Below are positions 3,741-62,189 of a stretch of DNA of 64,000 nt, in pieces. The first letter of the stretch is position 1. Every line of letters starts with the position of its first letter. Source of the DNA: Intrasporangiaceae bacterium URHB0013 (GTDB lineage: Bacteria; Actinomycetota; Actinomycetes; Actinomycetales; Dermatophilaceae); NCBI GenBank assembly GCA_000620545.1, contig JIBA01000013.1:496001-560000 (forward strand). Reading direction: 5' to 3'. The position numbers were made by a program, and so were the translations under genes. The notes beneath the pieces are model-generated. The model did not search any database. It was not told the origin of the DNA and saw only the letters and a list, made by a program, of their open reading frames with translations.

Positions 3741-3785
3741 CGCCCGTATGCCGTGTCGCCGAGGTGGCGACACGGCATACGGGCG
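3741..3785 (-). terminator. Strong hairpin terminator downstream of gltD, built on an inverted GTATGCCG/CGGCATAC pair
   Basis: A perfect 20-base-pair stem (3741-3760 with 3766-3785) around a five-base loop, lying just beyond the gltD stop codon. There is no U-tract, which is common for actinobacterial terminators. Each arm carries one copy of the octamer that is overrepresented across the window. Lying in the pyk-gltD gap, the hairpin would stop gltBD transcripts before pyk. Confidence 0.75.
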
Positions 3786-3799
3786 GGTGCGAGAGGCGG

Positions 3800-5257
3800 T
3801 CAGACGGTGAGCGGGCGGTCGGTCGGCGCGATCGGGCGCGGCAGCGAGCTCGACCCCGTAAGCCAGGCGTCGACGCCCGCTGCGGCGGCGCGGCCCTCGG
3901 CGATGGCCCAGACGATGAGCGACTGCCCCCGACCGGCGTCGCCGGCGACGAAGACCCCGGGGACCGAGCTCATGAAGTTCGTGTCCCGCGTGACGTTGCT
4001 GCGCTCGTCGAGGGCGACGCCGAGCTGCTCGACGACACCCGGCCCCTGCGGGCCGAGGAAGCCCATCGCGAGGAGGACGAGCTGCGCGGGGATCTCGCGC
4101 TCGGTGCCCGGCTTGGAGCTCAGCCTGCCGTCGACCAGCTCGACCTCGGTGAGGCGCAGCGCCGCGACGTTGCCGTCGTCGTCGCCGACGAACTCCGTGG
4201 TGCTGACGGCATACATCCGCTCGCCCCCCTCCTCGTGGGCGCTCGCCACGCGGTAGAGCATCGGGTAGGTCGGCCACGGCTGGTTGGCGGGGCGCTCCTC
4301 CCCCGGCTGCGGCAAGATCTCGAGACTCGTGACGGAGGCGGCACCCTGGCGGTGCGCGGTGCCGATGCAGTCGGCGCCGGTGTCACCGCCACCGATGACG
4401 ACGACGTGCTTGTCGGTGGCGAGGATCTGGCCCTCGACCTGCTCGCCGAGCGCCGCGCGGTTGCCCTGCGGGAGGTAGTCCATCGCCTGGTGGATGCCGC
4501 CGAGCCGGCGGCCCGGCACGTCGAGGTCGCGCGGGACGGTGGCCCCGAGCGCGAGCACGACGGCGTCGTAGCGGTCCCGCAGCTGGCGGCCGGTGATGTC
4601 GACGCCGACGTTCATGCCGTTGCGGAAACGGGTGCCCTCGGCGGCCATCTGGTCGAGACGCCGGTCGAGCACCGACTTCTCCATCTTGAACTCGGGGATG
4701 CCGTAGCGCAGCAGGCCACCGGGCTTGTCGGCCCGCTCGAACACGGCGACGGTGTGACCCGCGCGCGTCAGCTGCTGGGCAGCCGCGAGACCCGCGGGCC
4801 CGGACCCGACGACGGCCACGGTCTTGCCCGACAGCCGCTCGGGCGGGAGCGGCTTGACGAGGTCCTCGTCGAAGGCGCGCTCGATCGTCGTGACCTCGAC
4901 CTGCTTGATCGTCACCGCCGGCTGGTTGATGCCGAGCACGCACGCGGTCTCGCACGGCGCCGGACAGAGCCGCCCGGTGAACTCCGGGAAGTTGTTCGTC
5001 GCGTGGAGCCGCTCGATGGCGTCGGACCAGTCCCCACGCCAGGCGAGGTTGTTCCACTCGGGGATGAGGTTGCCGAGCGGGCAGCCAGAGTGGCAGAAGG
5101 GGATGCCGCAGTCCATGCACCGGCCGGCCTGGCGCTGGAGCTGCCCGAGCTCCTGCTCCTCGTAGACCTCCTTCCAGTCCCGGATGCGCACCGGGACGGG
5201 ACGTCGGGTCGGGAGCTCGCGCTCGCGGGTGGTGAGAAAGCCCTGGGGGTCAGCCAC
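3800..5257 (-). CDS. gltD: Glutamate synthase (NADPH) small subunit
   Basis: The electron-input subunit of GOGAT: it oxidises NADPH through FAD and passes electrons to GltB for glutamate formation. The 485-residue product has an N-terminal iron-sulfur module (Cys47, Cys50, Cys55, Cys59, plus CPAPCETAC). An FAD-binding Rossmann motif ([10 protein letters not shown]) and an NADPH-binding motif ([11 protein letters not shown]) follow, and near the end is the second FAD motif ([18 protein letters not shown]). The GTG at 5257 overlaps the gltB stop by eight bases and sits behind GGAGG inside gltB, so the two are translationally coupled. It is the last gene of the gltBD operon. Confidence 0.96.
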
Positions 5258-9815: not shown

Positions 9816-9953
9816 GTTCACCGTCCTTCTGCTGGGTCCAGACGGCGACCGCGACGGGGCCACGCGACATGACTGAGGGCATGTGGACGGCACTGGCCAC
9901 AGGCGTTGCGCCCGACGATATCGGAGGGACCGCTCGTCCTACCTGTTGATACG

Positions 9954-9964
9954 GCGGATTCCGC
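9954..9964. promoter_or_regulatory. Short palindrome upstream of gltB, possible regulator site
   Basis: GCGGA-T-TCCGC lies about 140 bases upstream of the gltB start, within the 200-base gap between gltB and lgt. The gap must hold the gltBD promoter, but I see no convincing -35/-10 pair. A palindrome this short could be chance. Confidence 0.2.
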
Positions 9965-10015
9965 ATCCTGAGACGTCGTGCTCACGTCGCGTGTCGGGAC
10001 ATGAACGCCAACGCA

Positions 10016-11871: not shown

Positions 11872-13127
11872 TGCTGCACCCCCAGGCCCTTGGCTCCGTC
11901 GTCGTCGGGCAGGCGGGCCGAACCGTCGCCCCCGATGAGGCCGAACCACTCGGCCGCCGTGTGGACGTCCTTGTCGCCGCGCCCCGAGAGGTTGACGAGC
12001 AGGACCGCGTCGCGGCCGAGCTCACGCCCGACCTGCATCGCGCCGGCCAGGGCGTGCGCGCTCTCGATCGCGGGCAGGATGCCCTCGGTGCGCGACAGCA
12101 GCGAGAACGCCTCCATCGCCTCGACGTCGGTGACCGCGCGGTACTCCGCGCGCCCCGACTCGAGCAGGTGCGCGTGCTCGGGACCGACGCTCGGGTAGTC
12201 GAGACCTGCGGACACGCTGTGCGACTCGACGGTCTGGCCGTCCTCGTCCTGCATGACGTAGGTGAAGGCGCCGTGGAGCACCCCGGGGATGCCGGCGGAG
12301 AAGCGCGCGGCGTGCTTGCCGGACTCGACGCCCTCGCCGCCCGCCTCGAGACCGATGAGGCGCACCGAGCCGTCGTCGATGAAGCGGTGGAAGATGCCCA
12401 TCGCGTTGGAGCCACCGCCGACACAGGCGAGCACGGCGTCGGGCAGGCGACCGACGAGGTCGAGCACCTGCTGGCGTGCCTCGACTCCGATGACGCGGTG
12501 GAAGTCGCGGACCATCTCCGGGAAGGGGTGGGGACCGGTGACCGTGCCGAGGACGTAGTGGGTGGTCCCGACGTTGGCCACCCAGTCGCGGAACGCCTCG
12601 TTGACCGCGTCCTTCAGGGTCTTGCTGCCGTGGTCGACGGCGACCACCTCGGCGCCGAGCAGGCGCATGCGGGCCACGTTGAGGGCCTGGCGCTCGGTGT
12701 CCTTGCGGCCCATGTAGATGACGCACTCGAGACCGAGCAGCGCTGCTGCCGTGGCCGTCGCGACACCGTGCTGGCCCGCTCCTGTCTCGGCGATGACGCG
12801 GGTCTTGCCCATCCGCCTGGTGAGCAGCGCCTGGCCGAGGACGTTGTTGATCTTGTGCGACCCGGTGTGGTTGAGGTCCTCGCGCTTGAGGATGACCCGG
12901 GCGCCGCCGCAGTGCTCAGCGAAGCGCGGCACCTCGGTGATGATGCTCGGCCGTCCCGTGTAGGTCCGCTGGAGGCGCTCGAGCTCACCGACGAACTCCG
13001 GGTCCACGACGGCCTTGCGCCAGACCTCCTCGAGCTGCTCGAGGGCGGGGATGAGGGCCTCGGGGACGTAGCGCCCTCCGAAACCCCCGAAGCGGCCGTA
13101 TGCCGGCACGTTGGACGTGGTGGTCAT
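11868..13127 (-). CDS. trpB: Tryptophan synthase beta chain
   Basis: PLP enzyme that condenses indole with serine to give tryptophan. The 419-residue protein begins with the conserved [14 protein letters not shown] block. The PLP lysine is in [12 protein letters not shown], the substrate site in [12 protein letters not shown], and the phosphate loop in [10 protein letters not shown]. The ATG at 13127 is chosen over the GTG six bases earlier because GGAGAG is about eight bases from the ATG but only two from the GTG. The trpC stop lies two bases before it, so translation is coupled. Confidence 0.96.
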
Positions 13128-13129
13128 GC

Positions 13130-13957: not shown

Positions 13958-13962
13958 TGCTC

Positions 13963-14232: not shown

Positions 14233-14289
14233 GGCGTCCTCTCTGGTCCGGGTCGGCTCCACTCCCGTGCGGGCCGACACCCCATTCTG

Positions 14290-16475: not shown

Positions 16476-16481
16476 CGAGCC

Positions 16482-16487
16482 ATTCTG
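16482..16487 (-). promoter_or_regulatory. Probable -10 element of trpE (leaderless)
   Basis: CAGAAT on the minus strand followed by six bases and the GTG start. The same hexamer and spacing precede hisI, and both are followed by GGC. Confidence 0.45.
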
Positions 16488-16585
16488 GCCCACCCGGCAG
16501 TGTGCTGTGTCGTCGGCTCGACCGTCGAGAGGTTGCCTCGGGTCACCCGGGCCGGTCGCCGACCACCGGAACGGTGCTCCGACGG

Positions 16586-19368: not shown

Positions 19369-21260
19369 CGGGAGACCTCCTCGGCCGCTGCGCCGGCGCC
19401 CCGTTCGGGGCCGTCGCCGAGCTCGTCGTCGAGCTCGGCGTCGTGCTCCTCGCCGGCAGCGATCGCCTCACGCTCGGCCGCCTCGCGGGCGTATGCCGTG
19501 ACGAGTCGCTCGTAGCCGACGCACCGGCCCAGCAGGGCTTCGTGGCTGCCGTGGTCGACGACGCGGCCGCCCTCGAGGTAGACGATCTCGTCGGCGAGCA
19601 GGATCGTGGCCATCCGATAGGCGACGACGAGGACCGTCGTGCCCGAGCTCGCCTCACGGAGGCGGCCGAGGATGGCCTGTTCGACGCTGGGGTCGACCGC
19701 CGACGTGGCGTCGTCGAGGATGAGCAGCTGCGGCTCGCGGATCACCGCTCGCGCGAGCGCGATCCGCTGCCGCTGGCCACCCGAGAGGCTGGCGCCGCGC
19801 TCACCGACCCGGGTGTCCAGGGCGTCGGGCAGGTGCTCGACGAATCCTGCGCCCTGAGCCACGTGGAGGGCCCGCCAGACACTGTCGTCGTCGTGCTGCG
19901 CACCGAGTGTGATGTTGCCGCGCACGGTGTCGTCGAACATGAAGGTCTGCTGTGCGACGAGGGCGGCGACGTCACTGACGCCCCCGCGACGCACGTCACG
20001 CAGGTCGATGTCGTCGACGACCACCGCGCCGGAGTCGGGGTCGACGAGGCGCATGACGAGATTCGTCAGCGTGGACTTGCCACTTCCGGTGGGCCCGACC
20101 ACCGCGACGGTGGAGCCGGGCGCCACGTCGAGGGTGACGTCCACGAGAGCCGGGTTGACGTCGTCCTCGCCCTCCTCGGTCGTGATCTCGTAGGCGTACG
20201 CCAGACCCTCGGTCTGCACGTGGCTCGCGGAACCGGACGGCAGCGCCCGCGAGCCGAACGTCATGCTCCCGGAGGCGTCGAGGACCGCGGACACGCGGTT
20301 CCACCCGACGACGGCGCGGGGCAGCTCGGCCAGCACCCAGCCGAGGGCCCGGACCGGGAAGGCGAGGATCGAGAAGAGATAGGCGATCTGGACGACCTGG
20401 GCCGCCGTGATCTGACCGCTGCTCACCCGGAGGGTGCCGACGAAGAGGACGGCGAGCGTGCCGACGGTCGGGATGGCCTCGATGGCGGGGTCGAAGCGGC
20501 CGCGCGTGCGGCCGACCTCGATGTTGGCGTCTCGCAGCTCGTCCGTGACGGTCCGGAAGCGCTCGGCCTCGTGGTCCTCACGACCCAGTGACTTGACGAT
20601 GAGCGCAGCCTCGAAGCTCTCGTGCGCGACCTCGGAGACGTCGGCGCGCAGCTGCTGGGCCCGCGTGACGCGCGGGGACATCGCCCGCTGGAAGGCGACG
20701 TTGGCGAGGAAGAGCATGGGGAAGACCGTGAGGCCGACGACCGCGAGCCACGGGTCGACGACGACCATCTGGACGATGCCGAAGACGAGCATGACGACGA
20801 CCCCGAGCGCCATGGGCAGCGGCGCGAAGATGTTCCACGTCGCCTCCACGTCGGCATTCGCGTTGGACAGGAGCTGCCCCGACGGGTGCTTGTGGTGCCA
20901 GCTGAGCGGCAGCCGGAGGTACTGGCGCGTCACCCTGCGCCGGTAGATCGCGCCGAGGTTGTACATCGCGACCCCACCGGCGATGCGGCGGCCGATGACG
21001 CCGATGATCGTCGTCAGCACCACGGCGGCCATCACGCCGCCGATGAACCACAGCTGCTGCGCGCTGGCATGACCCGCCTCGATCGCCGGGGTGATGGCTC
21101 GCTGGACGACGAAGCCGATGGCGGCGGCCGTGAGGCTCGTCATGACGCCGTAGACGATGCTGCCGAGCACGGCGAGGGCGAACCAGCGGGGCTGGTCCTT
21201 GATGCCCCGGCCGATGACGGCCAGACCCTCCCGAAGGGTGGAGGTGGGCGGGACGTTCAC
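19365..21260 (-). CDS. ABC exporter half-transporter, subunit with degenerate ATPase site
   Basis: A 631-residue partner of the downstream ABC gene. Membrane helices lie in residues 25-320. The ATPase domain has an intact Walker A (GPTGSGKST) and signature (LSGGQRQRI), but Walker B reads LLILDDATSAVD with Asp in place of the catalytic Glu, and the H-loop His is replaced by Tyr (VVAYRMAT). These changes mark it as the degenerate-site subunit of a heterodimeric exporter. The C-terminus is a hydrophilic Glu/Ala-rich tail of about 40 residues. The GTG at 21260 follows GGGGAGC. First gene of the two-gene unit. Substrate unknown. Confidence 0.92.
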   Translation of the reverse strand: MNVPPTSTLREGLAVIGRGIKDQPRWFALAVLGSIVYGVMTSLTAAAIGFVVQRAITPAIEAGHASAQQLWFIGGVMAAVVLTTIIGVIGRRIAGGVAMYNLGAIYRRRVTRQYLRLPLSWHHKHPSGQLLSNANADVEATWNIFAPLPMALGVVVMLVFGIVQMVVVDPWLAVVGLTVFPMLFLANVAFQRAMSPRVTRAQQLRADVSEVAHESFEAALIVKSLGREDHEAERFRTVTDELRDANIEVGRTRGRFDPAIEAIPTVGTLAVLFVGTLRVSSGQITAAQVVQIAYLFSILAFPVRALGWVLAELPRAVVGWNRVSAVLDASGSMTFGSRALPSGSASHVQTEGLAYAYEITTEEGEDDVNPALVDVTLDVAPGSTVAVVGPTGSGKSTLTNLVMRLVDPDSGAVVVDDIDLRDVRRGGVSDVAALVAQQTFMFDDTVRGNITLGAQHDDDSVWRALHVAQGAGFVEHLPDALDTRVGERGASLSGGQRQRIALARAVIREPQLLILDDATSAVDPSVEQAILGRLREASSGTTVLVVAYRMATILLADEIVYLEGGRVVDHGSHEALLGRCVGYERLVTAYAREAAEREAIAAGEEHDAELDDELGDGPERGAGAAAEEVSR

Positions 21261-21343: not shown

Positions 21344-22378
21344 TCACGTGCCCGTGACGACGCCGCCGCGGCTCCCTCTCTTCCAGAGCCACTCGGCATC
21401 CGGCGCCGCCCCGGGCTCCTCGCTCCGGACGAAGCCGAGCCGCGCCAGCACGCGCTGGCTCGCGACGTTGGCGGGCAGCGTGTGCGCGACGACGCCCAGC
21501 CCGGCGGCCTCGAACGAACGGCACATCGCAGACAGCACATCGGTCATCAGCCCGCTACCCCGGGCGGCGGGCACGAGGCCGTAGCCGACCTCGACGACAC
21601 CGTCCTCGGGGGGCCCGAAGCAGCCGATCGACCCGACGACCAGCCCGTCCGAGCGACGCACGACGTGTCGCGGCGTCCAGGGGCCCGGTCCCGAGGGCGG
21701 CATCATCCGTACCGCGTCGAGGTCGTCGCCTCGGGGGTAGCCGTCGGCCCAGTCGGGGCGAGACTCCCCCGCCAGCATCGCCGCGGCCTGCTCACGCGTC
21801 ACCGGCACGAGCCGAGCCTCGCGCGTCTCGACGGGTCCGTCGTCGATGGGCCGCACCGGCGCCCCGGTCGCGAGCCAGTGCCGCACCACGCCGTCGCGCT
21901 CGTCCTCCAGCACACCACCGCACGACGCGATGGTCCGCGCCGAGGCCGTGTTGGACAGGTCGCACGTCACGAGGACGGGATCGATCCGCCGACCGGCGGC
22001 CAGGCGCAGCGCGAGCCGCAGCGCGGCGCTCGCGACCCCCTGGCGCCGATGACCGGGCGCCACGGCATACCCGATGTGCCCGCCCTCGAGGAGGAGGGAC
22101 GGGGTGAGCGCATGGCGCACGGCGACGGTGCCGACCACGCGACCGTCGCGGAGGATCCACCGGTTCGAGGACGGCACCCGGCCCTCTGGAAGGGCTTCGT
22201 CGGACCGCTCCATCCGGCCGAGCCAGTCGACCCACTCCTCGAAGGCCCCGGGGTCGCGCAGTAGGTCACGGTCACCGGCGCGGTAGCCCGAGCCGTGGAT
22301 CGTGTCCCCGGCGAAGTCGTCGACCATCTGCCACCAGGACTCGGACAGGTCGACGGTGGGGCGCACGAGCTCGATCAC
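21344..22378 (-). CDS. Tandem GNAT-domain N-acetyltransferase
   Basis: A 344-residue protein with two GCN5-type acetyltransferase folds. The N-terminal copy (about 1-165) has GGHIGYAVAPGHRRQGVASA, a good acetyl-CoA loop (R/QxxGxG/A). The C-terminal copy (about 175-340) has VEVGYGLVPAARGSGLMTDV and ends with the family-typical NVASQRVLARLGF. Both could bind acetyl-CoA, although the second loop is less regular. Related tandem enzymes acetylate small molecules or protein N-termini; the substrate here cannot be told. The GTG at 22378 is supported by TAGGGT six bases upstream. It is divergent from the next gene. Confidence 0.85.
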   Translation of the reverse strand: MIELVRPTVDLSESWWQMVDDFAGDTIHGSGYRAGDRDLLRDPGAFEEWVDWLGRMERSDEALPEGRVPSSNRWILRDGRVVGTVAVRHALTPSLLLEGGHIGYAVAPGHRRQGVASAALRLALRLAAGRRIDPVLVTCDLSNTASARTIASCGGVLEDERDGVVRHWLATGAPVRPIDDGPVETREARLVPVTREQAAAMLAGESRPDWADGYPRGDDLDAVRMMPPSGPGPWTPRHVVRRSDGLVVGSIGCFGPPEDGVVEVGYGLVPAARGSGLMTDVLSAMCRSFEAAGLGVVAHTLPANVASQRVLARLGFVRSEEPGAAPDAEWLWKRGSRGGVVTGT

Positions 22379-22452: not shown

Positions 22453-23094
22453 ATGACGCGCCACGCCCAGACCGAACGCCTCCTGCTCTGTGACGAGCTC
22501 GAGCGTCTCGGCCCGGACGAGCCGACGATGTGCGACGGCTGGGCCACCCGCGACCTCGCCGCGCACCTCGTCATCCGCGAGGGTCGCCCCGACCTCGCCG
22601 TGGGGCGCGTCCTCCCCTTCCTGGCGGGCCACCTCGAGCGCGAGCAGAGCAGGATGGCCCACGGCGACTACGCGGCCCTCGTCGACCGTGTCCGGCGCGG
22701 CGCTCCCCGGTGGAACCCGATGGCCCAGGCCAAGGTCGACGAGCTGACGAACCTCATCGAGTACTTCGTGCACCACGAGGACGTCCGCCGTGCCCAGCCG
22801 GACTGGCAGCCGCGCGAGCTGTCGCCGCAGCTGCAGGGCAAGCTCTGGTCATCGCTGCGCCGCTCGGCGCGGTTCATGTTCCGCCGTGCCGCGACCGGCA
22901 TCGTGCTCATCGCCGAGGGCCAGGGGAGGTATGCCGCCAGGCTGCCCGACCAGCACGGCACGGTCGTGCTGCGCGGCACCCCGGCCGAGCTCGTGCTCTA
23001 CGCCTACGGCCGCAAGGAGGTTGCCCGGGTCGAGTTCCAGGGCGACGCCGACGACATCGCCGCGCTCCAGGAGGCGGAGCTCGGCATCAGCTGA
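22453..23094 (+). CDS. TIGR03085-family protein (DinB/mycothiol-maleylpyruvate isomerase-like)
   Basis: A 213-residue protein of the actinobacterial TIGR03085 group, related to the metal-binding DinB/MDMPI fold. Visible are the N-terminal helix with the CDGWATRDLAAHLVIREGRPD block (metal-ligand His) and the second-ligand region IEYFVHHEDVRRAQP, followed by a C-terminal sterol-carrier-like part. Relatives use mycothiol as cofactor or work as thiol-dependent S-transferases; no substrate can be given. The ATG at 22453 has GAGAGG upstream. It converges with hisF, seven bases apart. Confidence 0.8.
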   Translation: MTRHAQTERLLLCDELERLGPDEPTMCDGWATRDLAAHLVIREGRPDLAVGRVLPFLAGHLEREQSRMAHGDYAALVDRVRRGAPRWNPMAQAKVDELTNLIEYFVHHEDVRRAQPDWQPRELSPQLQGKLWSSLRRSARFMFRRAATGIVLIAEGQGRYAARLPDQHGTVVLRGTPAELVLYAYGRKEVARVEFQGDADDIAALQEAELGIS

Positions 23095-23929: not shown

Positions 23930-24517
23930 ATGTGGGACGAGGTGACGCGCCCTCCGCGCGAGGAGCACGTGGCCGCCGTCGTGTCGCTCGCCCGCACGGC
24001 CGAGGCCCGCTGTGGCGACGTCGTGGTCGTGGCACTGGACGGGCCGAGCGGCGCGGGGAAGACGACGCTGGCCCACGGCATCGAGCTCGCGCTCGCGCCC
24101 ACGGGTCCGGTCGCCGTCGTGCACATGGACCACCTCTACCCCGGCTGGGACGGCCTGGCGCAGGCGCCCCGGCTGCTCACCGCCCAGGTCCTCGAGCCGC
24201 TGTCCCGCGGCGAGCGGGCGGCATACCGGCTGTGGAGCTGGGTGCGCGAGGAGTGGACGGGCACGCGCGAGGTGCCACCGTGCCGCTTCCTCGTCGTCGA
24301 GGGGTGCGGTTCCAGCGTGCAGCCGGCCGGGGGGTATGCCGCCGTGTCCGTCTTCGTGGACGCCGACACCGCGCTGCGGATGCGCCGTGGGATCGACCGC
24401 GACGGCGAGGGCTACCGACCCCAGTGGCAGCGCTGGGCCGACCAGGAGGCCGCGCTCTTCAGCGCCGACGCCACCAGGGAGCGCGCGGACCTCGTCCTCG
24501 ACACATCTAGTCTCTGA
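23930..24517 (+). CDS. Uridine-kinase-like P-loop phosphotransferase
   Basis: A 195-residue P-loop protein similar to bacterial uridine kinase or phosphoribulokinase-type enzymes. The nucleotide-binding loop is ALDGPSGAGKTTLA, and the acidic acceptor region is VVHMDHLYPGWDGL, where Asp would be the catalytic base. The FLVVEGCGSS strand follows, then a lid helix region with RRGIDRDG. The substrate is not evident and need not be uridine. The start is the ATG at 23930, seven bases after TAGGGT. Its stop TGA shares one base with the ATG of the MFS gene, so they form an operon. It carries two copies of the overrepresented octamer. Confidence 0.8.
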   Translation: MWDEVTRPPREEHVAAVVSLARTAEARCGDVVVVALDGPSGAGKTTLAHGIELALAPTGPVAVVHMDHLYPGWDGLAQAPRLLTAQVLEPLSRGERAAYRLWSWVREEWTGTREVPPCRFLVVEGCGSSVQPAGGYAAVSVFVDADTALRMRRGIDRDGEGYRPQWQRWADQEAALFSADATRERADLVLDTSSL

Positions 24518-40593: not shown

Positions 40594-41439
40594 TCACAGC
40601 CGGCAGGCGGCGATGTCGGTGACGAGAATCGCCCGCGCGCCGAGGTCGTAGAGCTCGTCCATGAGGCGGTTGCGGCCGATGCGCGGGACCATGGCACGCA
40701 CGGCGACCCACGCCTCGTCCTGCATCGGCGAGACCGTCGGCGACTCGAGGCCCGGTGTCAGCTCGCACGCCCGGTCGACGAGCTGTCGCGGGCAGTCGTA
40801 GTCGAGCATGACGTAGGTGCGGGCGGTGATGACTCCGGCGATGCGTCGCTGGAGCACCTCGATGGCCTGTGCCTCGCCCGGGCGGTCGCCGCGGATGAGG
40901 ACGGCCTCCGACCGCAGGATCGGCTCACCGAAGACCTCGAGGCCCTGCTGCCGCAAGGTCGTCCCGGTCTCCACGACGTCGGCGATGCAGTCGGCGACGC
41001 CGAGGGTGATGGCCGTCTCGACGGCGCCGTCGAGGCGCACGACCTCGGCCGACAGCCCGCGCGCGGCGAGATCGGAGCGGACCAGCCCGGCATACGACGT
41101 CGCGACACGCTTGCCGGCGATGTCGTCGACGGTGGCCACGTGACCCGGCTTGCCGGCATACCGGAAGGTCGACGAACCGAAGCCGAGCGACATGACCTCG
41201 ACGGCGTCCGAGCCGGAGTCGAGCAGCAGGTCGCGGCCGGTGACCCCGGCGTCGACGGTGCCCGAGCCGACGTAGACCGCGATGTCGCGCGGACGCAGGT
41301 AGAAGAACTCGACGTCGTTCTCGGCGTCGGAGACGACGAGCTCCTTGGTGTCACGGCGGGTGCGGTAGCCCGCCTCGCGCAGCAGCTCGACGGTGGCGTC
41401 CGACAGGGAGCCCTTGTTGGGCACGGCGATTCTCAGCAT
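40594..41439 (-). CDS. hisG: ATP phosphoribosyltransferase, long form
   Basis: First and feedback-controlled step of histidine synthesis. The 281-residue length and the C-terminal ACT-like regulatory domain (QDEAWVAVRAMVP, LGARAILVTDI) make it the long form that works without HisZ. Catalytic core blocks are LRIAVPNKGSL, GVTGRDLLLDSG and the PRPP loop region CIADVVETGTTLRQQGL. The ATG at 41439 has GAGGA somewhat far upstream. It follows hisE closely, the usual actinobacterial hisE-hisG pair. It carries two copies of the octamer CGGCATAC. Confidence 0.96.
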   Translation of the reverse strand: MLRIAVPNKGSLSDATVELLREAGYRTRRDTKELVVSDAENDVEFFYLRPRDIAVYVGSGTVDAGVTGRDLLLDSGSDAVEVMSLGFGSSTFRYAGKPGHVATVDDIAGKRVATSYAGLVRSDLAARGLSAEVVRLDGAVETAITLGVADCIADVVETGTTLRQQGLEVFGEPILRSEAVLIRGDRPGEAQAIEVLQRRIAGVITARTYVMLDYDCPRQLVDRACELTPGLESPTVSPMQDEAWVAVRAMVPRIGRNRLMDELYDLGARAILVTDIAACRL

Positions 41440-41453: not shown

Positions 41454-41717
41454 TCAGAGGTGGGAGTAGACGTCGTCGAGCGTGATGCCCTTGGCGAGCA
41501 TGAGGACCTGGAGATGGTAGAGGAGCTGGCTGATCTCCTCGGCCGCCTCGTCGTTCGACTGGTACTCGGCAGCCATCCACACCTCGGCCGCCTCCTCGAC
41601 GATCTTCTTCCCGATGGCGTGGATGCCGGCGTCGAGCTGCGCCACCGTGCCCGAACCCTCGGGACGCGCCTGCGCCTTCTCGGCCAGCTCGGCATACAGC
41701 TGCTCAAACCTCTTCAC
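41454..41717 (-). CDS. hisE: Phosphoribosyl-ATP pyrophosphatase
   Basis: Second step of histidine synthesis; removes pyrophosphate from phosphoribosyl-ATP. An 87-residue all-helical MazG-like protein with [14 protein letters not shown] (metal-binding Glu residues) and [14 protein letters not shown]. The start GTG at 41717 is eight bases after TAGGCT, consistent with its own leaderless promoter even though it follows the rib operon on the same strand. hisG follows 14 bases downstream. Confidence 0.95.
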
Positions 41718-43504: not shown

Positions 43505-44106
43505 CCCGCGACCTCTTGCCGATGGGTGAGCAGTCGCTCGACATACTTCGCGATGACGTCCACCTCGAGGTTGACGGCGTCGCCGACATCCTTCTGTCCC
43601 AAGGTCGTCAGCTCGAGCGTGGTGGGGATGAGCGAGACGCCGAAGGCGTCGTCACCGACGTGCGCGACGGTGAGCGAGACACCGTCGACGGTGATCGAGC
43701 CCTTCTCGACGACGTATGCCGCGAGGCTGGCCGGCAGCGTGAAGTCGACCGTCTCCCAGCGGTCCCCGGGCGTGCGCGCCGTGATGGTGGCGGTGCCGTC
43801 GACGTGCCCCTGGACGACGTGGCCGCCGAACCGGCCGTCGGCGGGCATGGCGCGCTCGAGGTTGACGCGGTCGCCGGGGCCCAGCGCACCCAGGCTGCTT
43901 CGCTCCAGGGTCTCGGCCATGACGTCGACGGTGAAGCCGGAGGCGTCGTGCTCGGTCACGGTGAGGCAGACCCCGTTGACGGCGATGGAGGCACCGTGGG
44001 CGGCGTCACTGACGACAAGGGGGCCGTCGATGCGCAGCACGGCCGACTCGCGGCCGTGCTCGATGGCGGCGACGGTGCCGAGCTCCTCGACGATTCCGGT
44101 GAACAT
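43501..44106 (-). CDS. ribE: Riboflavin synthase alpha chain
   Basis: Dismutates two lumazine molecules to riboflavin. The 201-residue product has two lumazine-binding barrels, the first starting MFTGIVEELG with GASIAVNGVCLTV, the second starting GGHVVQGHVDGTA with GSITVDGVSLTV. The ATG at 44106 has GAGGAG upstream and matches the invariant family N-terminus. It follows ribD by ten bases. Confidence 0.96.
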   Translation of the reverse strand: MFTGIVEELGTVAAIEHGRESAVLRIDGPLVVSDAAHGASIAVNGVCLTVTEHDASGFTVDVMAETLERSSLGALGPGDRVNLERAMPADGRFGGHVVQGHVDGTATITARTPGDRWETVDFTLPASLAAYVVEKGSITVDGVSLTVAHVGDDAFGVSLIPTTLELTTLGQKDVGDAVNLEVDVIAKYVERLLTHRQEVAG

Positions 44107-46337: not shown

Positions 46338-46994
46338 TCAGTGCGCGTGCTCGCGGGCGAGGGCGCGGAGCTCGTCGACCGCCGCAGCGGCGTCGCCGGC
46401 ACCGTAGACCGCGGAGCCGGCGACGAACACGTCGGCTCCGGCCTCGGCGCACTGCTCGATCGTGTCGGCGCTGACCCCGCCGTCGACCTGGACCCAGATC
46501 TCGCCGCCGTGGCGCCGCACGGCATCGTGGACCTGCCGGACCTTCGGCATCTGGTCGGCCATGAAGGACTGCCCGCCGAAGCCGGGCTCGACCGTCATGA
46601 CGAGCACCATGTCGAGGTCGGGCAGGAGGTCCTCGTAGGGCGCGAACTCGGTCCCGGGCTTGAGCGCCATCGCCGAACGGGCACCAGCAGCACGCAGTGC
46701 CCGGGCCAGGGTCCGGGGGTCGCGCGCAGCCTCCACGTGGAAGGTCACCGACTGGCACCCCGCCTCGGCATACATCGGTGCCCACCGGTCGGGGTCCTCG
46801 ATCATCAGGTGGGCGTCGATGGGGATCGAGCTCACCTTCAGCAGCGCCTCGACGACGGGGAGGCCCAGAGTGAGGTTGGGGACGAAGTGGGCGTCCATGA
46901 CGTCGACGTGCGCCCAGTCGGCGTTCGCGATGCGTCCCAGCTCGGCCTCGAGGTTGGCGAAGTCGGCGGACAGGATGCTCGGGGAGATCTGCAC
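46338..46994 (-). CDS. rpe: Ribulose-phosphate 3-epimerase
   Basis: Interconverts ribulose 5-phosphate and xylulose 5-phosphate in the pentose phosphate pathway. A 218-residue TIM barrel with [54 protein letters not shown] and [10 protein letters not shown], which together hold the metal ligands and catalytic Asp pair. The GTG at 46994 is preferred to the one at 47000 because TAGGCT ends six bases before it. Its product, ribulose 5-phosphate, is also a precursor for RibB in the next operon. Confidence 0.95.
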
Positions 46995-47022: not shown

Positions 47023-47805
47023 TCAGCTCGCGGCCTTCGTCCAGACGGACACGTGCGACTCGGAGTCCGCGGTGAAGGGGGCGCGCGTCCAGTCGGCCCA
47101 CCGGTCGCGCAGCGTCAGGCCGGCGATCCGGGCCATGAGGTCGAGCTCCGACGGCCACACGTAACGGTGCGCGGACGCCGAGTAGGTCGCGACCTCCCGG
47201 CCATCGTCGTCCTCCCGCACCCCGGCTCGGACGTCGTGGTGCGAGACCGAGCGCTGGGTGACGACGTCGATGGTGTCGAAGCCGACGTGCCGACCGCCGA
47301 CGTGGAAGGGCACCGCGGTCTGCCCGGGCGGCATCCGACGCAGCTGGGGCACGAAGACCTCGACGACGAACGCCCCGCCCGGCGCGAGCTGCGCTGCGAC
47401 GGTGCAGAAGCACTCCACCTGCTCGTCCTGCGTCAGCAGGTTGGTGATCGTGTTGTAGACGAGGTACGCCAGGCGATACCCGCTACCGACCCGAGTGGTC
47501 GCCATGTCGCCGATCACGCCCGGCAGCCGGTCTCCGCCGGGCTTGCGACGCAGCTCTCGGACCATGGCCTCCGAGACGTCGATGCCGTGGACCTCGACAC
47601 GGCGCGCCGCGAGGGGCAGCGCAACGCGACCGGTGCCGATCGCGAGCTCGAGCGCGGGGCCGGCTCCTGCGATCTCGTGCAGCACGTCGACGGTCGGGCC
47701 GAGCACGGCCGGCTCGAACATGTGGGCCGAGCCCGCGTCGTAGGTGGGCGCGACCCGCTCGTCGAAGGGGGTGGGCTCGAGCTCGCCCATGGCGTATGCC
47801 GTCAT
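47023..47805 (-). CDS. SAM-dependent class I methyltransferase
   Basis: A 260-residue methyltransferase. Motif I is ALELAIGTGRVALPLA, motif II EVHGIDVSEAMV, and YLVYNTITNLLTQDEQV and LAPGGAFVVEVFVP follow. The C-terminal part, RYVWPSELDLMARIAGLTLRDRW, is the usual end of the UbiE/bioC-like group. The substrate is unknown. The ATG at 47805 has CAGAGT six bases upstream and no ribosome binding site. It lies between rsmB and rpe on the same strand. Confidence 0.85.
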   Translation of the reverse strand: MTAYAMGELEPTPFDERVAPTYDAGSAHMFEPAVLGPTVDVLHEIAGAGPALELAIGTGRVALPLAARRVEVHGIDVSEAMVRELRRKPGGDRLPGVIGDMATTRVGSGYRLAYLVYNTITNLLTQDEQVECFCTVAAQLAPGGAFVVEVFVPQLRRMPPGQTAVPFHVGGRHVGFDTIDVVTQRSVSHHDVRAGVREDDDGREVATYSASAHRYVWPSELDLMARIAGLTLRDRWADWTRAPFTADSESHVSVWTKAAS

Positions 47806-50934: not shown

Positions 50935-52230
50935 GGACCGCGAGGGTTCGCCGGCCTCGGCGCCGGTCCCGGCTCCGTCCTGGCTCCCGGGCGCGTCCGG
51001 GTCCTCGCTGCTGCGCCCGAGCTCGCGCACCGAGCGGGACAGCAGCGCCGCGAGCGAGATCACGACGTAGACACCGGCGCTGACGAGCATCAGCGTCTCC
51101 GTCTCCACCGTCGTCGCGAGCCAGCCGTAGAGGAAGGTGCCGATGGGGATGGCGACGAACGACCCCAGCGCGTCGTAGCTCGACACCCGCGAGAGCACGT
51201 GGACGGGAACGTGCTCGTGCAGGGCGGTGCTCCATCCGACGCCGAAGACCTCGACGGCGGCCCCGGCGAGAAAGAAGCCGATCGCGACGGGGAGCACCGC
51301 CGGCGCCGCCCCGAGCAGCACCATGGGCACGGCGACGACGCAGATCGCGAGCATCCCCGCTCGCAGTGGCCGCTTGAGCTGCAGCCGCAGCATGACGAGG
51401 GTCATCAGGACGGTGCCGATGGCCTCGGCGCTCAGCACGAGCCCCCAGCCCGCCTCGCCGATGGAGGCCGTCGACTTCGCGATGAGCGGGCCCAGCACCC
51501 CGATGACGCCGGCGTGGATGGCGTTCGTCAGCCCGAAGGCGAGCACCACGACCCAGAGCCACTCGCGCCGGGTGAACTCGCTCCACCCCTCGCGCAGCTC
51601 GCGGACCATCGAGTGTCGCGGCCCGGTGACCTCCTGCGAGCGGCGCGGCAGACCGACACGGCTGAGGCAGACGATGGCGACGGCATACGTCAGCGCGTCG
51701 ATGGCCAGCGCCCACCCGGGTCCGACGCCCACGACGAGGAGGCCGGCGATGGCCGGTCCGACGATGGACAGGCCGCTGCGGCTGAACGACAGCAGCGCGT
51801 TTGCCTGCTGCAGCTTCGTGCGGTCGACGACTTGCGGGACGATCCCCATCATCGCGGGCATCGTGAACGCCGAGACGGCGCCGTTGACACCCTCGATCAC
51901 CGTCAGCTGGGTCAGCGTCGCGTCGCCACTGATGATGAGGTACGCGGCGAGCGCCTGGGTGAGGAACGTGAGCACGTGCGAGACCTGGAGCACGACGATG
52001 CGCGAGAAGCGGTCGGCGACGACCCCGCCCACGAGGAGGAAGACGACCATCGTCAGGGTGCGCACTCCCAGCACCTGCGCGAGTGCTCCCGCCGACTGGT
52101 CGATGTGCAGCACGGCGAAGGCGAGGGCGACGGGCACCATGACCGAGCCCGTCGTCGAGACGGTGCGTGCCGCGAAGTACCACGCGAACCGGCGCTCCGA
52201 GAGGACGCCCATCGAGTCCCGGACCTTCAT
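50932..52230 (-). CDS. MFS exporter co-transcribed with an ArsR-type regulator
   Basis: A 432-residue, about twelve-helix major facilitator of the MFS_3/enterobactin-exporter-like group. It has [24 protein letters not shown] at the start and the loop motif [13 protein letters not shown]; repeated half-topology resumes near [19 protein letters not shown]. The C-terminal 30 residues are hydrophilic (Asp/Gly/Ser). The ATG overlaps the regulator stop (ATGA), so the pair forms a regulator-efflux operon. The inducing compound and substrate are unknown. Confidence 0.86.
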
Positions 52231-54176: not shown

Positions 54177-56213
54177 TCAGAACGTGTCGAGCGGGTCGAC
54201 CCGCACGGCCACGACCTCGGATTCCTTGCGCGCCGAGCGAAAGGCCTTGAGCGCCAGCAGGGCCCGGGTGAGGGACTCGGTCTCGGACGCCGGCGCCCGG
54301 ACGAGCACGTGGTGATCGGCCAGGGAACGCTCGGGCTCGCCGTCGACGGGGAGCCGCCGAGGCGCGCCCCCCGGCTGGGCGAGCCGCACGGGGCCGAGCA
54401 CCTGGGCGGTGCCGGGCAGGTCGGCCTGCTCGAGCGCCTCCTCGAGGGCGCGCCGCCCGCCGGTCAGCTGGGCCACGCGCACGGCCGGCGGCAGGCCGAG
54501 CTCGCGCCGCTCGGCCAGCTCGCGCGCCGCGAGCCACGCAGGGTCCCACCGCACGAGCGCCTCGACGGCCGGCAGCGCGACCGCCTCCGGGGCGCCGCTC
54601 AGCACGACGGCACGCCCCTCCCGGGCCAGGGCGGCGGCGGCCATCCACCGGCGCAGCGCCTCGAGGGGTGCATCGAGCACGGGCAGGTCGAGGCTTGCCC
54701 AGGCGTCGAGCAGCAGCACCGCGGTGTAGCCGCCGTCGGCCACCGGCTCAGCTCCTGGGGTGGCGATGACGAGCGACGGCTGGCGACCGACCGTGGCCAG
54801 CACCTCGCCGGAGCCCGACGTCAGCACCGGGAAACCCGGGAAGGCTCGACCGATCTCCTCGGCGGTGCGTCGGGCGCCGGTGATCGACGAGCGCAACCGA
54901 TGGGACCCGCAGTGACCGCACTCGAAGCCGTGGCCGGCGAGGGCGAGACCGCACCACCGGCAGGTCGGGGCGGTCCCCGCGGCACCGAGCGCGACCGGGC
55001 CCTGGCACCGGGCGCACCGCACCGGGGTCCGGCACTCCGCACAGCTGAGCGACGGGAGGTAGCCACGCCGGGGCACCTGCACGAGCACCGGCCCGTCGAC
55101 GAGCGCGTCCTTGGCGACGCGCCAGGCCCGGGAGGGGAGGTGGGCGCGGGCGGCCGGCCCGTCGCGTTCCTCGTCGACACCCTCCCCCGCGATCGTCACG
55201 CGCGGCGCCGCCACGCGCACGGTCGCGGCATCGGCCTCGACCGGCACCAGCGCCCCGGTCTCGACCACCACCTGCACGCGCAGGCTCCTGGCGTAGCCAC
55301 CGGTGAGCAGGGCTGCCCCCGTCGCGGCGGCCCGCAGCCCGAGCACGACGCCGACGTGGTGGTACGGCGCACGCGGCTCGGCGAGCAGGTCGTCACCGTC
55401 GTCCCACCAGGCGAGGAGCCCGAGGTCGTGGACGGGGGCGAAGGCCGCAGCGCGCGTGCCGATGACGACGCGGACATGGCCGCGGAGCGCCTTGAGCCAG
55501 GCGGTGTAGCGCGCCTGCGGCCCTTGGTCGGAGGTGAGCCGCACGTGCCGGCCCTTGCCGAGGACCGAGGTCAGGGCGGCGTCGAGGCGGTCGACGTCCC
55601 GGTGGTCGGGCACGACGACGAGCGCGCCGCGCCCCACAGCCGCCGCCGTGGCGACGGCGACCGCCATCGCCGCCGGCCAGTCCGCCTCCCCGGTGCGACC
55701 GGGAAGCGCGGTCCACGCCGCCGCCGGGCCCTCCCCGGCCGCGACGCGACGCAGCCACGCCGCACCGGCCGGGTAGGCCGCCCACGGACCGGGGTCGGGT
55801 GCCGCCACCTCGTCCTGGACCGGGCACTCCATCGGGAGGTTGCGCTCGGCCGTGGCGTGGCGTTTCGGCACGGCCAGACGCAGGACATCGCTGAGCGTGC
55901 CGGCATACCGGTCGGCGACGGCGCGGCAGGTTGCGAGGACCTCGGGGGTCAGCACCGGCTCGGGGCTGACCACGCGTCGCAGGGGCGTCAGGCGGCCGTC
56001 GTGCTGGGCCTCGTCGCGACGCTCGACGACGAAGCCGTCGAGCTCGCGTCCCGAGAACCGGACGCGCACGCGGGCGCCCGGGACCGCGTGCGCGTCGAGC
56101 TCGTCGGGAACGGCGTACTCGAAGACGCGATCCAGGTGCGCGAGCGGGGTCTCCACCACGACGGCAGCGACCGGCCGTCCGGCCGGTCGCTGTCTCGTCT
56201 CGTCGTCGCCCAC
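54177..56213 (-). CDS. priA: Primosomal protein N' (PriA), degenerate helicase form
   Basis: Replication-restart protein of 678 residues. The N-terminal DNA-binding domain is clear (VVVETPLAHLDRVFEYAVPDEL in outline, positions 17-38). The zinc region is complete, with four CxxC pairs (CAEC, CARC, CRWC, CGHC). The helicase motifs are not: the Walker A position reads LPGRTGEADWPAAMA with no GKT, and the DEEH box reads WWDDGDD. Actinobacterial PriA is often so reduced and annotated as probably inactive. It may still act as a primosome scaffold. The GTG at 56213 has TAGATT seven bases upstream. Confidence 0.9.
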   Translation of the reverse strand: MGDDETRQRPAGRPVAAVVVETPLAHLDRVFEYAVPDELDAHAVPGARVRVRFSGRELDGFVVERRDEAQHDGRLTPLRRVVSPEPVLTPEVLATCRAVADRYAGTLSDVLRLAVPKRHATAERNLPMECPVQDEVAAPDPGPWAAYPAGAAWLRRVAAGEGPAAAWTALPGRTGEADWPAAMAVAVATAAAVGRGALVVVPDHRDVDRLDAALTSVLGKGRHVRLTSDQGPQARYTAWLKALRGHVRVVIGTRAAAFAPVHDLGLLAWWDDGDDLLAEPRAPYHHVGVVLGLRAAATGAALLTGGYARSLRVQVVVETGALVPVEADAATVRVAAPRVTIAGEGVDEERDGPAARAHLPSRAWRVAKDALVDGPVLVQVPRRGYLPSLSCAECRTPVRCARCQGPVALGAAGTAPTCRWCGLALAGHGFECGHCGSHRLRSSITGARRTAEEIGRAFPGFPVLTSGSGEVLATVGRQPSLVIATPGAEPVADGGYTAVLLLDAWASLDLPVLDAPLEALRRWMAAAALAREGRAVVLSGAPEAVALPAVEALVRWDPAWLAARELAERRELGLPPAVRVAQLTGGRRALEEALEQADLPGTAQVLGPVRLAQPGGAPRRLPVDGEPERSLADHHVLVRAPASETESLTRALLALKAFRSARKESEVVAVRVDPLDTF

Positions 56214-57541: not shown

Positions 57542-58801
57542 TCAGTCCAGCAGTGGCGAGATGGCGTCCCAGAGCGCGTCGGCGACGACGTCCTTGGAGG
57601 CCGGACCGACGGTGGTCGCCTCGTCGCTGCCGCGGCGGAGGAGGTGCACCGTCGTGTCGTCCTTGCCGAACGTCAGGTCGGCGCCCACCTCGTTGACGAC
57701 CTGCAGGTCGCTGCCCTTGCGGAGGAACTTCGCCCTGGCGTGGTCCATGACACTGCCGTTCGCGTCGCCCGTCTCGGCGGCGAAGCTGACGATGAAGGGA
57801 GCGCCCGTCCCCCGGGCCTCCCGGGCTGCGACCAGCCCGCGGACGATGTCGGGGTTCTCGACGAGCTCGACCCGCAGGCCGGCCTCGCGATCGGAGGACT
57901 TCTTGATCTTGCTCTCGCTCACGGACACGGGCCGGAAGTCGGCCGGAGCAGCGGCCATGACGACCACGTCGGCGTCGGCGGCCGCCTCCTCGACGGCACG
58001 CTGCAGCTCGAGGGTCGTCTCGACGTGCACGACGTCGATGCCGTCGGGCACCGCCAGCGACACGTTGGCGGCCACGAGGGTGACCTTCGCCCCCCGGTCG
58101 GCGGCCGCACGTGCGACGGCGACGCCCTGCTTGCCCGAGGAGCGGTTGCCCAGGTAGCGCACGGGGTCGAGCGGCTCCCGCGTGCCGCCGGCGGACACGA
58201 CGACGCGACGACCCTCGAGGTCGCGGGCTCCACCCACGGCTCCACCCCCGGCTTCGTGCACCGGGGCTGCGCGCCCACTGTCGACGATGGCGAGGCATGC
58301 GGCATACAGCTGCTCAGGCTCGGGCAGGCGACCGGCGCCGATGTCCTTGCCCGTGAGTCGCCCCACGGCGGGGTCGATGACGTGCGCACCGCGCTCGCGC
58401 AACGTGGCGACGTTGGCCTGGGTGGCCGGGTGCTCCCACATCTCGGTGTGCATGGCCGGAGCGAAGGCGACCGGGCACCGGGCGGTGAGCAGGGTGTTGG
58501 TCAGGAGGTCGTCGGCGAGGCCGTGGGCGGCCTTCGCGAGGAGGTCGGCCGTGGCCGGGGCGACGACGACGAGGTCGGCCGACTGACCGATGCGGACGTG
58601 CGGGACCTCGTGGACCGAGGTCCACACCTCCGTGCTGACGGGCTTGCCGGAGAGGGCCGACCACGTCGGCGCCCCCACGAACTGGAGCGCCGCCGCGGTG
58701 GGCACGACCGTGACGTCATGCCCGTGCTCGGTGAAGAGCCGGAGCAGGGAGCAGGCCTTGTAGGCGGCGATGCCGCCGCTCACACCGAGGACGACACGCA
58801 T
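57542..58801 (-). CDS. coaBC: Bifunctional phosphopantothenoylcysteine decarboxylase / phosphopantothenate-cysteine ligase
   Basis: Two consecutive steps of coenzyme A synthesis in one chain of 419 residues. The N-terminal flavin-dependent CoaC domain has VVLGVSGGIAAYKACSLLR, VVAPATADLLAKAAHG and the catalytic His in FAPAMHTEMW. The C-terminal CoaB domain has VVSAGGTREPLDPVRYLGN (18 or so residues of the nucleotide loop), RSSGKQGVAVA and NEVGADLTFGKDDT. The ATG at 58801 has GGGAG upstream. It follows rpoZ by 25 bases. Confidence 0.96.
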   Translation of the reverse strand: MRVVLGVSGGIAAYKACSLLRLFTEHGHDVTVVPTAAALQFVGAPTWSALSGKPVSTEVWTSVHEVPHVRIGQSADLVVVAPATADLLAKAAHGLADDLLTNTLLTARCPVAFAPAMHTEMWEHPATQANVATLRERGAHVIDPAVGRLTGKDIGAGRLPEPEQLYAACLAIVDSGRAAPVHEAGGGAVGGARDLEGRRVVVSAGGTREPLDPVRYLGNRSSGKQGVAVARAAADRGAKVTLVAANVSLAVPDGIDVVHVETTLELQRAVEEAAADADVVVMAAAPADFRPVSVSESKIKKSSDREAGLRVELVENPDIVRGLVAAREARGTGAPFIVSFAAETGDANGSVMDHARAKFLRKGSDLQVVNEVGADLTFGKDDTTVHLLRRGSDEATTVGPASKDVVADALWDAISPLLD

Positions 58802-60675: not shown

Positions 60676-60681
60676 ACCGTA
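60676..60681 (-). promoter_or_regulatory. Probable -10 element of lipoprotein A (leaderless)
   Basis: TACGGT on the minus strand, six bases before the ATG. It overlaps a copy of the octamer CGGCATAC. Confidence 0.4.
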
Positions 60682-60810
60682 TGCCGTGTCGTGGGCGTCG
60701 CTCGCCGAGGCGCGCACGAGCGGCCGGTCCTCGACGGACACTCGGGCAGACGGACAGACGGTGCTGGGGTGGTGCGGTCGACCTCCCGCCGCGTGTTCGG
60801 TGCCGAGGGG

Positions 60811-61290: not shown

Positions 61291-61310
61291 ACCAGAGGCA
61301 TACCAGAGGC
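61284..61310. repeat. Two and a half copies of an 11-bp repeat at the lipoprotein B start
   Basis: GAGGCATACCA repeated directly across the start codon region; each full unit contains GGCATAC. On the minus strand it gives two ATG codons eleven bases apart in different frames. Confidence 0.75.
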
Positions 61311-61349
61311 ACACCCGGCTGGGAAGAGCCTGGGACGCGAGCGACGTCG

Positions 61350-62189
61350 TCAGCGCAGGGAGTCGACGATCCGCGCCGCCCGGTCCACGAGGTGGCCGAC
61401 GTCGGGACCGGCCCGGAGGATCTCGCGGCTCGAGGCGGCCAGCACCTGGGTGTGCGCAGGGCCGAAGGTCGACGCGAGCGAGTCGACCGTCCCGCCCTGT
61501 GCGCCGAACCCGGGGGCGAGCACGGGCGTCGCGGCCGCGACGAGGTCGAGTCCGAGCTCGTGCACGGCCGGGCCCACCGTGGCGCCGATGACGAGGCCCA
61601 CGCTGCCCAGCTCGCCGCGCGCCCGGGCAGGCGCGTTGTCGCCGCTCGCTCCGTTCACGACCGACGCCGCGACCGACTCGCCGCCACGTACGGCGTGCTG
61701 CACGCCGGCGCCCTCCGGGTTCGAGGTGAGCGCGAGGACGAAGAGGCCGCGGCCTGCCTGCTCGGCGAGGTCGATCGCGGGTCGCAGCGACTCGTAGCCG
61801 AGGTAGGGACTGACCGTCAGGGCGTCCGGCGGGGCGACGGCGTGCGGTCCGAGATAGGCCTCGGCGTATGCCGTCATGGTCGACCCGATGTCACCGCGCT
61901 TGGCGTCGAGGATCGTCAGGGTCCCCGCCTGCCGGAGCTCGGTGAGCACCCGCTCGAGCACGGCGATCCCGCGGCTGCCGAAGACCTCGAAGAAGGCGGA
62001 CTGCGGTTTGACCGCAGCGACGCGGCCGGCGAACGCCTCCACGCACGTCAGGGCGAACCGTTCGAGCCCGGCGAGGTCGTAGGACAGGCCCCATGACTCG
62101 ACCAGGGCCCGGTGCGGGTCGATCCCGGCGCAGAGGGGGCCGTGGGTCGTCATGGCGTCCTGGAGGCGCGCTCCGAAGGCCTGGCTCAT
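61350..62189 (-). CDS. pyrF: Orotidine 5'-phosphate decarboxylase, type 2
   Basis: Last step of UMP synthesis. The 279-residue length and the order of motifs mark the type 2 form of actinobacteria: GPLCAGIDPHRALVESWGL, VKPQSAFFEVFG, catalytic LTILDAKRGDIGSTM and the phosphate-binding VLAPGFGAQGG. The ATG at 62189 has GGAG eight bases upstream. It is third in pyrK-pyrD-pyrF, 43 bases after pyrD. Confidence 0.96.
   Translation of the reverse strand: MSQAFGARLQDAMTTHGPLCAGIDPHRALVESWGLSYDLAGLERFALTCVEAFAGRVAAVKPQSAFFEVFGSRGIAVLERVLTELRQAGTLTILDAKRGDIGSTMTAYAEAYLGPHAVAPPDALTVSPYLGYESLRPAIDLAEQAGRGLFVLALTSNPEGAGVQHAVRGGESVAASVVNGASGDNAPARARGELGSVGLVIGATVGPAVHELGLDLVAAATPVLAPGFGAQGGTVDSLASTFGPAHTQVLAASSREILRAGPDVGHLVDRAARIVDSLR

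Follow-up and report, generated by a model that had tools for sequence, protein, structure and literature searches.

An over-represented octamer with traits of a DNA uptake sequence in the Dermatophilaceae/Intrasporangiaceae

The octamer in the window and in the genome

The word CGGCATAC is scattered over a stretch of 64,000 nucleotides from Intrasporangiaceae bacterium URHB0013 (contig JIBA01000013.1, positions 496,001 to 560,000; here denoted the window). The window carries 22 exact copies, 12 on the plus and 10 on the minus strand, at all the positions given by an earlier sequence-only reading of this DNA, which had also noted the similar number on both strands. Dinucleotide shuffles of the window contain 0.94 copies on average and none of 100 reaches 22; an order-2 Markov model expects 0.83. 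The core GGCATAC occurs 27 times. Three copies (at 3746, 3773 and 33203) lie outside called genes, and the other 19 all encode Tyr-Ala as TAT-GCC (11) or Ala-Tyr as GCA-TAC (8). Genes were called with our own codon-based caller, which has no ribosome-site model, so that starts may be off, and which called zero genes in genome G022. The sites are listed here together with their state in five congeners, which can be aligned with the window over 53 kb at 85-89% identity.

3738..3792, minus strand: terminator-like hairpin on an inverted motif pair, a fold of 55 nucleotides at -46.1 kcal/mol
3746..3753, minus strand: copy 1, left arm of the hairpin, intergenic; same in 5 of 5 congeners
3773..3780, plus strand: copy 2, right arm of the hairpin, intergenic; same in 4 of 5
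4207..4214, plus strand: copy 3, genic, TAT-GCC; same in 1 of 5
13098..13105, minus strand: copy 4, genic, GCA-TAC; same in 5 of 5
19491..19498, minus strand: copy 5, genic, GCA-TAC; same in 5 of 5
22063..22070, plus strand: copy 6, genic, TAT-GCC; same in 5 of 5
22929..22936, minus strand: copy 7, genic, TAT-GCC; same in 0 of 5
24219..24226, plus strand: copy 8, genic, GCA-TAC; same in 1 of 5
24334..24341, minus strand: copy 9, genic, TAT-GCC; same in 5 of 5
28224..28231, plus strand: copy 10, genic, GCA-TAC; same in 3 of 5
33203..33210, minus strand: copy 11, outside called genes; not alignable in 5 of 5
41088..41095, plus strand: copy 12, genic, TAT-GCC; same in 2 of 5
41154..41161, plus strand: copy 13, genic, TAT-GCC; same in 4 of 5
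41690..41697, plus strand: copy 14, genic, TAT-GCC; same in 4 of 5
43714..43721, minus strand: copy 15, genic, GCA-TAC; same in 5 of 5
46766..46773, plus strand: copy 16, genic, TAT-GCC; same in 1 of 5
47794..47801, minus strand: copy 17, genic, GCA-TAC; same in 5 of 5
51681..51688, plus strand: copy 18, genic, TAT-GCC; same in 4 of 5
55901..55908, plus strand: copy 19, genic, TAT-GCC; same in 5 of 5
58300..58307, plus strand: copy 20, genic, TAT-GCC; same in 5 of 5
60679..60686, minus strand: copy 21, genic, GCA-TAC; same in 5 of 5
61866..61873, minus strand: copy 22, genic, GCA-TAC; same in 0 of 5

The whole genome (4,567,713 bases in 17 contigs) contains 1,988 copies of the octamer, 1,011 on one strand and 977 on the other, against 248 occurrences of the reversed word used as a control; the sequence-only reading had suggested such a count, in related genera too. 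Strand counts in eight blocks of 58 kb range between 13/17 and 16/8, and summed over 61 motif-rich genomes of the family the two strands carry 64,269 and 64,041 copies. No significant strand bias was seen in the genome, in the eight blocks or in the 61 genomes, a comparison that does not amount to a full replichore map.

Genic and intergenic copies were counted in a contiguous sample of 464 kb, made up of 400 kb and the window. The sample holds 171 copies (94 and 77 by strand), which is 25 times the 6.8 expected by a Markov model, whereas the 24 single-mismatch words occur at 0-2.8 times expectation. The copies are spaced nearly at random (coefficient of variation 0.93) and are threefold denser between genes, at 0.90/kb, than in genes, at 0.30/kb. 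Shuffling synonymous codons within genes predicts 13.9 genic copies (standard deviation 3.8, maximum 22 in 30 shuffles), whereas 124 of the 171 are genic, and the score of CGGCATAC under this shuffle is the highest among all 8-mers. The statement that every genic copy reads as TAT-GCC or GCA-TAC, true of the window, did not extend to the larger sample, in which 106 of the 124 do so and 18 stand in other frames. An apparent depletion of one-mismatch neighbours was dropped under a better null model: when the codons of the motif were kept constant, genes contained 323 single-mismatch words against 242 expected, a modest excess, with positions 3 and 4 still in deficit.

Between genes the word extends to R-CGGCATAC-G, that is RCGGCATACG: the preceding base is A in 24 and G in 14 of 46 copies, and the following base is G in 37 of 46. 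The flanks show little conservation beyond about 10 bases.

The choice of codon follows bases outside the codon pair. The share of TAT is 71/103 in the context G-TAY-GCC-G, falls to 10/51 in C-TAY-GCC-G and 3/16 in G-TAY-GCC-C, and is 45/252 in Tyr-Ala pairs outside the full octamer context; the earlier remark that TAC-GCC is used after a codon ending in C thus holds for pairs followed by G. Likewise, GCA makes up 35/89 of alanine codons in CG-GCN-TAY and 8/264 in all other Ala-Tyr pairs. Equal enrichment in other contexts, which the sequence-only reading had named as the sign of mere codon-pair bias, was looked for and overall was absent, the sole other TAT-favouring context being the small G-TAY-GCG-G, with TAT in 6 of 8.

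Comparison with the five congeners showed that the sites are maintained. In each congener 14 or 15 of the 20-21 alignable window sites are identical, whereas other 8-mers with three A/T bases are kept in 39-50%. Where the amino acid is kept, the TAT of a motif is retained in 38 of 52 comparisons (73%) against 11 of 69 (16%) outside motifs, and the GCA of a motif in 29 of 35 (83%) against 92 of 467 (20%); cases of amino-acid replacement (3, 1, 5 and 55) were excluded. The codon test rests on 11 + 8 motif codons and 17 + 138 others in five related genomes, which are not independent, and the effect is still large.

The inverted pair at 3746-3780, taken earlier for a terminator hairpin, does fold into a hairpin (z -8.4). 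It sits between the called minus-strand genes 2178-3635 and 3800-5257, about 20 bases past the end of the latter. Genome-wide, inverted pairs of the form GTATGCCG-N(3-30)-CGGCATAC are found at 23 places, the window pair among them, where about 6 are expected (fourfold, P about 1e-7), and pairs in the opposite order at 12 places against about 6 (P 0.02). By eye, the arms of many among the 23 pairs enclose complementary letters too; fold and gene context were determined for the window pair alone.

Distribution, dialects and losses in the family

A search with HisF gave Terrabacter tumescens (96% identical) and Humibacillus xanthopallidus (94%) as nearest neighbours, followed by Knoellia, Tetrasphaera and others; a plasmid search with window positions 20000-40000 returned a single uninformative match, Microbacterium hisF. 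Nine genomes of the genus, our own included, carry from 1,423 copies of CGGCATAC (in a 74% complete genome) to 2,358. Loci of about 20.8 kb hold 7 copies in Terrabacter, 14 in Humibacillus, 14 in Knoellia, 11 in Tetrasphaera, 8 in Nostocoides and 9 in Flexivirga, and are poor in the word in three Phycicoccus (0, 0 and 1) and in Mobilicoccus (0). Among 119 genomes of the family, 61 reach at least 150 copies per Mb, 8 lie at 60-150 and 50 below, and 30 of 53 genera include a motif-rich genome. A sample of 248 genomes of the order includes 228 that belong to 18 other families; none of these reaches 100 per Mb, and their copy numbers do not exceed 177 per genome or, on small counts, about four times the reversed control.

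Some genomes of the family use a related word, or dialect. Genome G034 has 140 copies of CGGCATCC in 140 kb, 90 of them in genes where 17.1 are expected, and at 2.89/kb between genes against 0.73 within. Its sister G024 has 41 copies of CGGCATCC in 60 kb, again denser between genes (1.37/kb against 0.53). In G028 the dialect is CGCATACC, with 23 copies in genes against 2.2 expected, and the same word recurs 8 times within 12.7 kb of the metagenome bin L031. In a Flexivirga locus of 20.7 kb, CGTCATAC, CGCCATAC and CGGCATAC co-occur.

We built a tree from TadA-TadB-TadC of 21 of 53 family genomes, leaving out 32. Both CGGCATCC genomes form one clade (99/97), nested in a clade (98/97) with CGGCATAC genomes. 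Motif-poor genomes are scattered over the tree: G076 stands by G033 and G102, G009 by G052, and G018 by G012. Either the word is ancient in the family and was lost many times, or it was gained repeatedly, as far as can be read from a single-locus tree that horizontal transfer of tad genes could distort.

The word CGGCGTAC of G048 and G056 was considered as a further dialect and dropped: it is enriched in genes and not denser between them. Words of the CGTACG type in Streptomyces and Streptosporangiales are likewise enriched in genes and rare intergenically, which makes a codon-context effect likely for CGGCGTAC. It occurs with other CGTACG-type words in loci L119, L164, L165 and L181-L184 of G048 and in L122, L166 and L190-L192 of G056.

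Transformation genes and inserts in tad-2

The sequence-only reading had pointed to competence genes as a check on an uptake signal. Our own genome encodes ComEA, with SLBB and helix-hairpin-helix domains, next to ComEC, and it has three tad loci. ComEC is present in 52 of the 53 genomes, and it was therefore discarded as a correlate of the word. Judged by eye, ComEA-like proteins occur in 8 of the 9 other loci called, whether rich or poor in the motif; nothing was called in the locus L159. A type IV pilus of the PilT type was also rejected as a correlate, as TIGR01420 scores above cut-off in one of the 53 genomes (G033); partial or related high-scoring matches occur in G013 and G054.

The third tad locus, denoted tad-2, has the order TadA-TadB-TadC-Flp-TadE-TadF-TadG-like, with a PrfB-like protein further on. 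Flp, TadF and PrfB are presumably what these names say, assigned by likeness; Flp and TadF gave no Pfam match. Just downstream of tad-2 in our own genome lies a secreted-looking protein with a lamin-tail domain (PF00932; L163, 14441-14899), and no like protein stands beside tad-2 in the other loci compared. An orthologue of TadA-2 is present in 25 of 27 motif-rich genomes (three in pieces or partial) and in 10 of 17 motif-poor ones (Fisher P 0.017, kinship uncorrected). This test covered 44 of the 53 genomes and left out the dialect genomes G024, G034 and G028, the CGGCGTAC-related G048, G056 and G111, and the intermediate G027, G109 and G110. The tad-2 locus is a weak correlate of the word. 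For comparison, transformation of Micrococcus luteus needs two tad loci and ComEC (PMC4322843).

The genome G076 has almost no copies of the word, whereas its congeners G033 and G102 have over a thousand each. Its comEC is frameshifted in the assembly (L224, 9063-11458), possibly by sequencing error, and the 40 kb read around its tadABC yielded no Flp, TadE, TadF or TadG-like gene.

The tadA-2 gene is a target of inserted DNA. In G015 an insert of 11 kb, encoding a large serine integrase, a primase and a phage major head protein, splits the gene right after GGTQAG, which we take to be the nucleotide-binding loop. In G025 the gene breaks off at this very codon (L253, about 10523). In G111 an insert of 16 kb, in which one short protein was called, splits the gene near residue 138 (L243-L244, contig 2, about 3246810-3262930). 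The element in G015 is recorded as follows.

L241-L242, G015 contig 43, about 9847-20886: phage-satellite-like insert

Transformation genes are recurrent targets of mobile-element integration (PMC4774983), and the inserts hence lend indirect support to tad-2 as a transformation locus. The G015 insert is also poor in the word, with 1 copy against 10.3 expected (P 0.0004; the insert was chosen after the fact). In G034, 6 kb of replacement DNA has no dialect copies against 4.5 expected (P 0.011); it was likewise chosen afterwards, and the neighbouring tadABC also lacks copies.

In the G034 DNA that replaces flp-tadE-tadF, L233 3597-4658 encodes a protein of 353 residues made of tandem 13-residue repeats (DWQRQLFQKPLVP). 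At some distance from their intact tadA-2, G033 (L246 9698-10146) and G047 (L259 10347-10553) carry additional short fragments of this gene (81-87% alike), perhaps remnants or attachment sites of mobile elements.

An uptake sequence and the alternatives to it

We propose that CGGCATAC is probably a DNA uptake sequence of the Dermatophilaceae/Intrasporangiaceae (Actinomycetota), an option that the sequence-only reading had named first, and that it is probably read during transformation by an Flp/Tad pilus. The reading ranks first because density, exactness, strand symmetry, permissive placing, hairpin pairs, dialects, losses and scarcity in two inserts jointly resemble the DNA uptake sequence (DUS) of Neisseriaceae, and we know of no other class of word that shares all these traits. 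The link to pilus genes is weak.

Under this proposal competent cells would produce an Flp/Tad-type pilus, and a putative DNA-binding protein on the filament or the cell surface would prefer double-stranded DNA carrying the word. Such DNA would pass ComEA and ComEC and then recombine into the chromosome. Word-bearing fragments would enter more often, their alleles would replace word-less ones by molecular drive, and copies would accumulate on either strand at any place where coding constraints or intergenic DNA permit. A changed receptor specificity would give rise to a dialect, and with loss of transformation the word would decay to background. From the pattern of sites and genes we infer all three of its core elements: recognition of the word in uptake, a receptor on the Tad pilus, and drive as the cause.

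The uptake signal sequence (USS) of Pasteurellaceae carries AT-rich helical flanks; CGGCATAC is a different word in a different phylum, with one weak base on each side. Like CGGCATAC, the USS, whose receptor is predicted to be the minor pilin ComN/PpdA, is a short over-represented word; it has two dialects and pilus-linked uptake (PMC12616744, PMC1939737). The DUS reaches 943 to 5,918 exact copies per genome in the examples given, its dialects follow phylogeny, some Neisseriaceae have no obvious DUS, and inverted pairs are tied to terminators (PMC3630211). Our word is similarly abundant, with dialects, word-less relatives and inverted hairpin pairs. It differs in being an unrelated word of 8 to 10 bases in Actinobacteria, likened to the DUS from sequence alone, in a family where the PilT-type pilus ATPase scores above cut-off in just one of 53 genomes, and where inverted pairs are a small share of sites (23 + 12 places among 1,988). 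Micrococcus luteus resembles our genome in being an actinobacterium with two tad loci, ComEA and ComEC, the tad loci being likened by type; it differs in that the term 'uptake sequence' is absent from the main text of PMC4322843, whose excerpted passages describe no word-specific uptake.

Several observations weigh against the uptake reading. The machinery does not predict the word, because ComEC and tad loci are also present in motif-less genera. Genome G055 has 1,624 copies yet no TadA-2 orthologue, and in the dialect genomes G034 and G028 tad-2 is disrupted or incomplete in the stretches read. No candidate for a pilus-borne receptor was found, in scans that included no search aimed at ComP, and among open-licence papers one search for natural competence in Intrasporangiaceae listed a single title, seemingly unrelated. 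On the 21-genome tree the presence of CGGCATAC requires 7 changes against a mean of 7.1 for shuffled labels and so does not cluster, and in the first 40 kb of G024 CGGCATCC is outside the seven top words of the synonymous shuffle. Depletion in congener accessory DNA is a trend alone (4 copies against 8.9 expected, P 0.058). Finally, in the Neisseriaceae examples single-mismatch copies of the DUS outnumber exact ones (PMC3630211), whereas here they show just the modest excess in genes given above.

The best-placed alternative, though an unlikely one, is that the word is a site of another DNA-processing system, such as a Chi-like recombination hotspot, a guide for segregation or translocation of the KOPS (FtsK orienting polar sequences) type or a nucleoid-protein site, and is kept by selection. 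Density, an exact word and synonymous conservation would also be expected from a selected chromosome-wide protein site, and the word is specific to the family. Chi and KOPS are strand-biased along the replichore, whereas CGGCATAC lacks significant strand polarity, so a replication-polar form of the maintenance motif considered in the sequence-only reading is a poor fit. Absence from whole genera, a dialect switch within a clade and hairpin pairs are also unexpected of a site for chromosome upkeep.

We consider it improbable that the word is linked to methylation, with an orphan methyltransferase and a repair bias keeping it frequent. Restriction would favour avoidance of the word, which speaks against this explanation, and a bias in the repair of one base would be expected to deplete a single neighbouring word, whereas the deficits seen are slight and divided between positions 3 and 4. 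The model for it is HIP1, which is a lineage-wide over-represented octamer, very frequent, and discussed together with orphan methyltransferases (PMC4390886). HIP1, however, is palindromic, whereas CGGCATAC differs from its complement GTATGCCG.

Two further explanations are barely credible. Copies of a short mobile or structural repeat (of the repetitive extragenic palindrome, miniature inverted-repeat transposable element or terminator kind) would account for those sites that stand in hairpins, but little is conserved beyond about 10 bases and most sampled copies are genic. A codon-pair or codon-context bias would suit the 19 window copies in two codon pairs, such biases exist in relatives (the CGTACG-type words), and G-TAY-GCG-G favours TAT too; it is rejected because bases outside the pair decide the codon and intergenic sites are denser than genic ones, and the synonymous shuffle speaks against it as well.

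If CGGCATAC is an uptake sequence, Gram-positive bacteria may likewise have evolved a way to take up DNA of their own kind selectively. Uptake sequences have been described for Pasteurellaceae and Neisseriaceae (PMC1939737, PMC3630211, PMC10526031). For mycobacteria none has been reported so far, according to an excerpt of PMC10526031, and the excerpted text of the Kineococcus paper PMC2587704 makes no mention of such words. In the open-licence literature, a scope outside which subscription papers and preprints fall, no report of an uptake sequence in Actinobacteria was among the matches listed. We advance only tentatively the full picture of a third, independent uptake-sequence system, the first in a Gram-positive (monoderm) phylum, in which a word-specific Flp/Tad-pilus receptor, genus-level dialects, repeated loss and phage satellites that hit the pilus ATPase gene would belong together.

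Were the proposal true, sex limited to own kind would have arisen again, probably with a different pilus, and the Flp/Tad transformation machinery would gain a specific ligand. The word would suggest which soil genera are transformable and would provide an independent test case for molecular drive against selection for kin DNA, and the dialect switch between close genera would serve as a natural experiment for locating the receptor.

Other frequent 8-mers were seen in passing. Those in L114 (G031 contig 1, 1-20000), L120 (G049) and L112 (G027) resemble clustered regularly interspaced short palindromic repeats (CRISPR) or tandem repeats, for example CAGTTCGA with 28 copies in L114, and they vanished or fell in rank under a filter for spread. 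The 20.8 kb locus L045 of Rhodococcus spongiicola contains ATTGGACG and words that overlap it 10 to 12 times, where 0.3 to 0.4 are expected.

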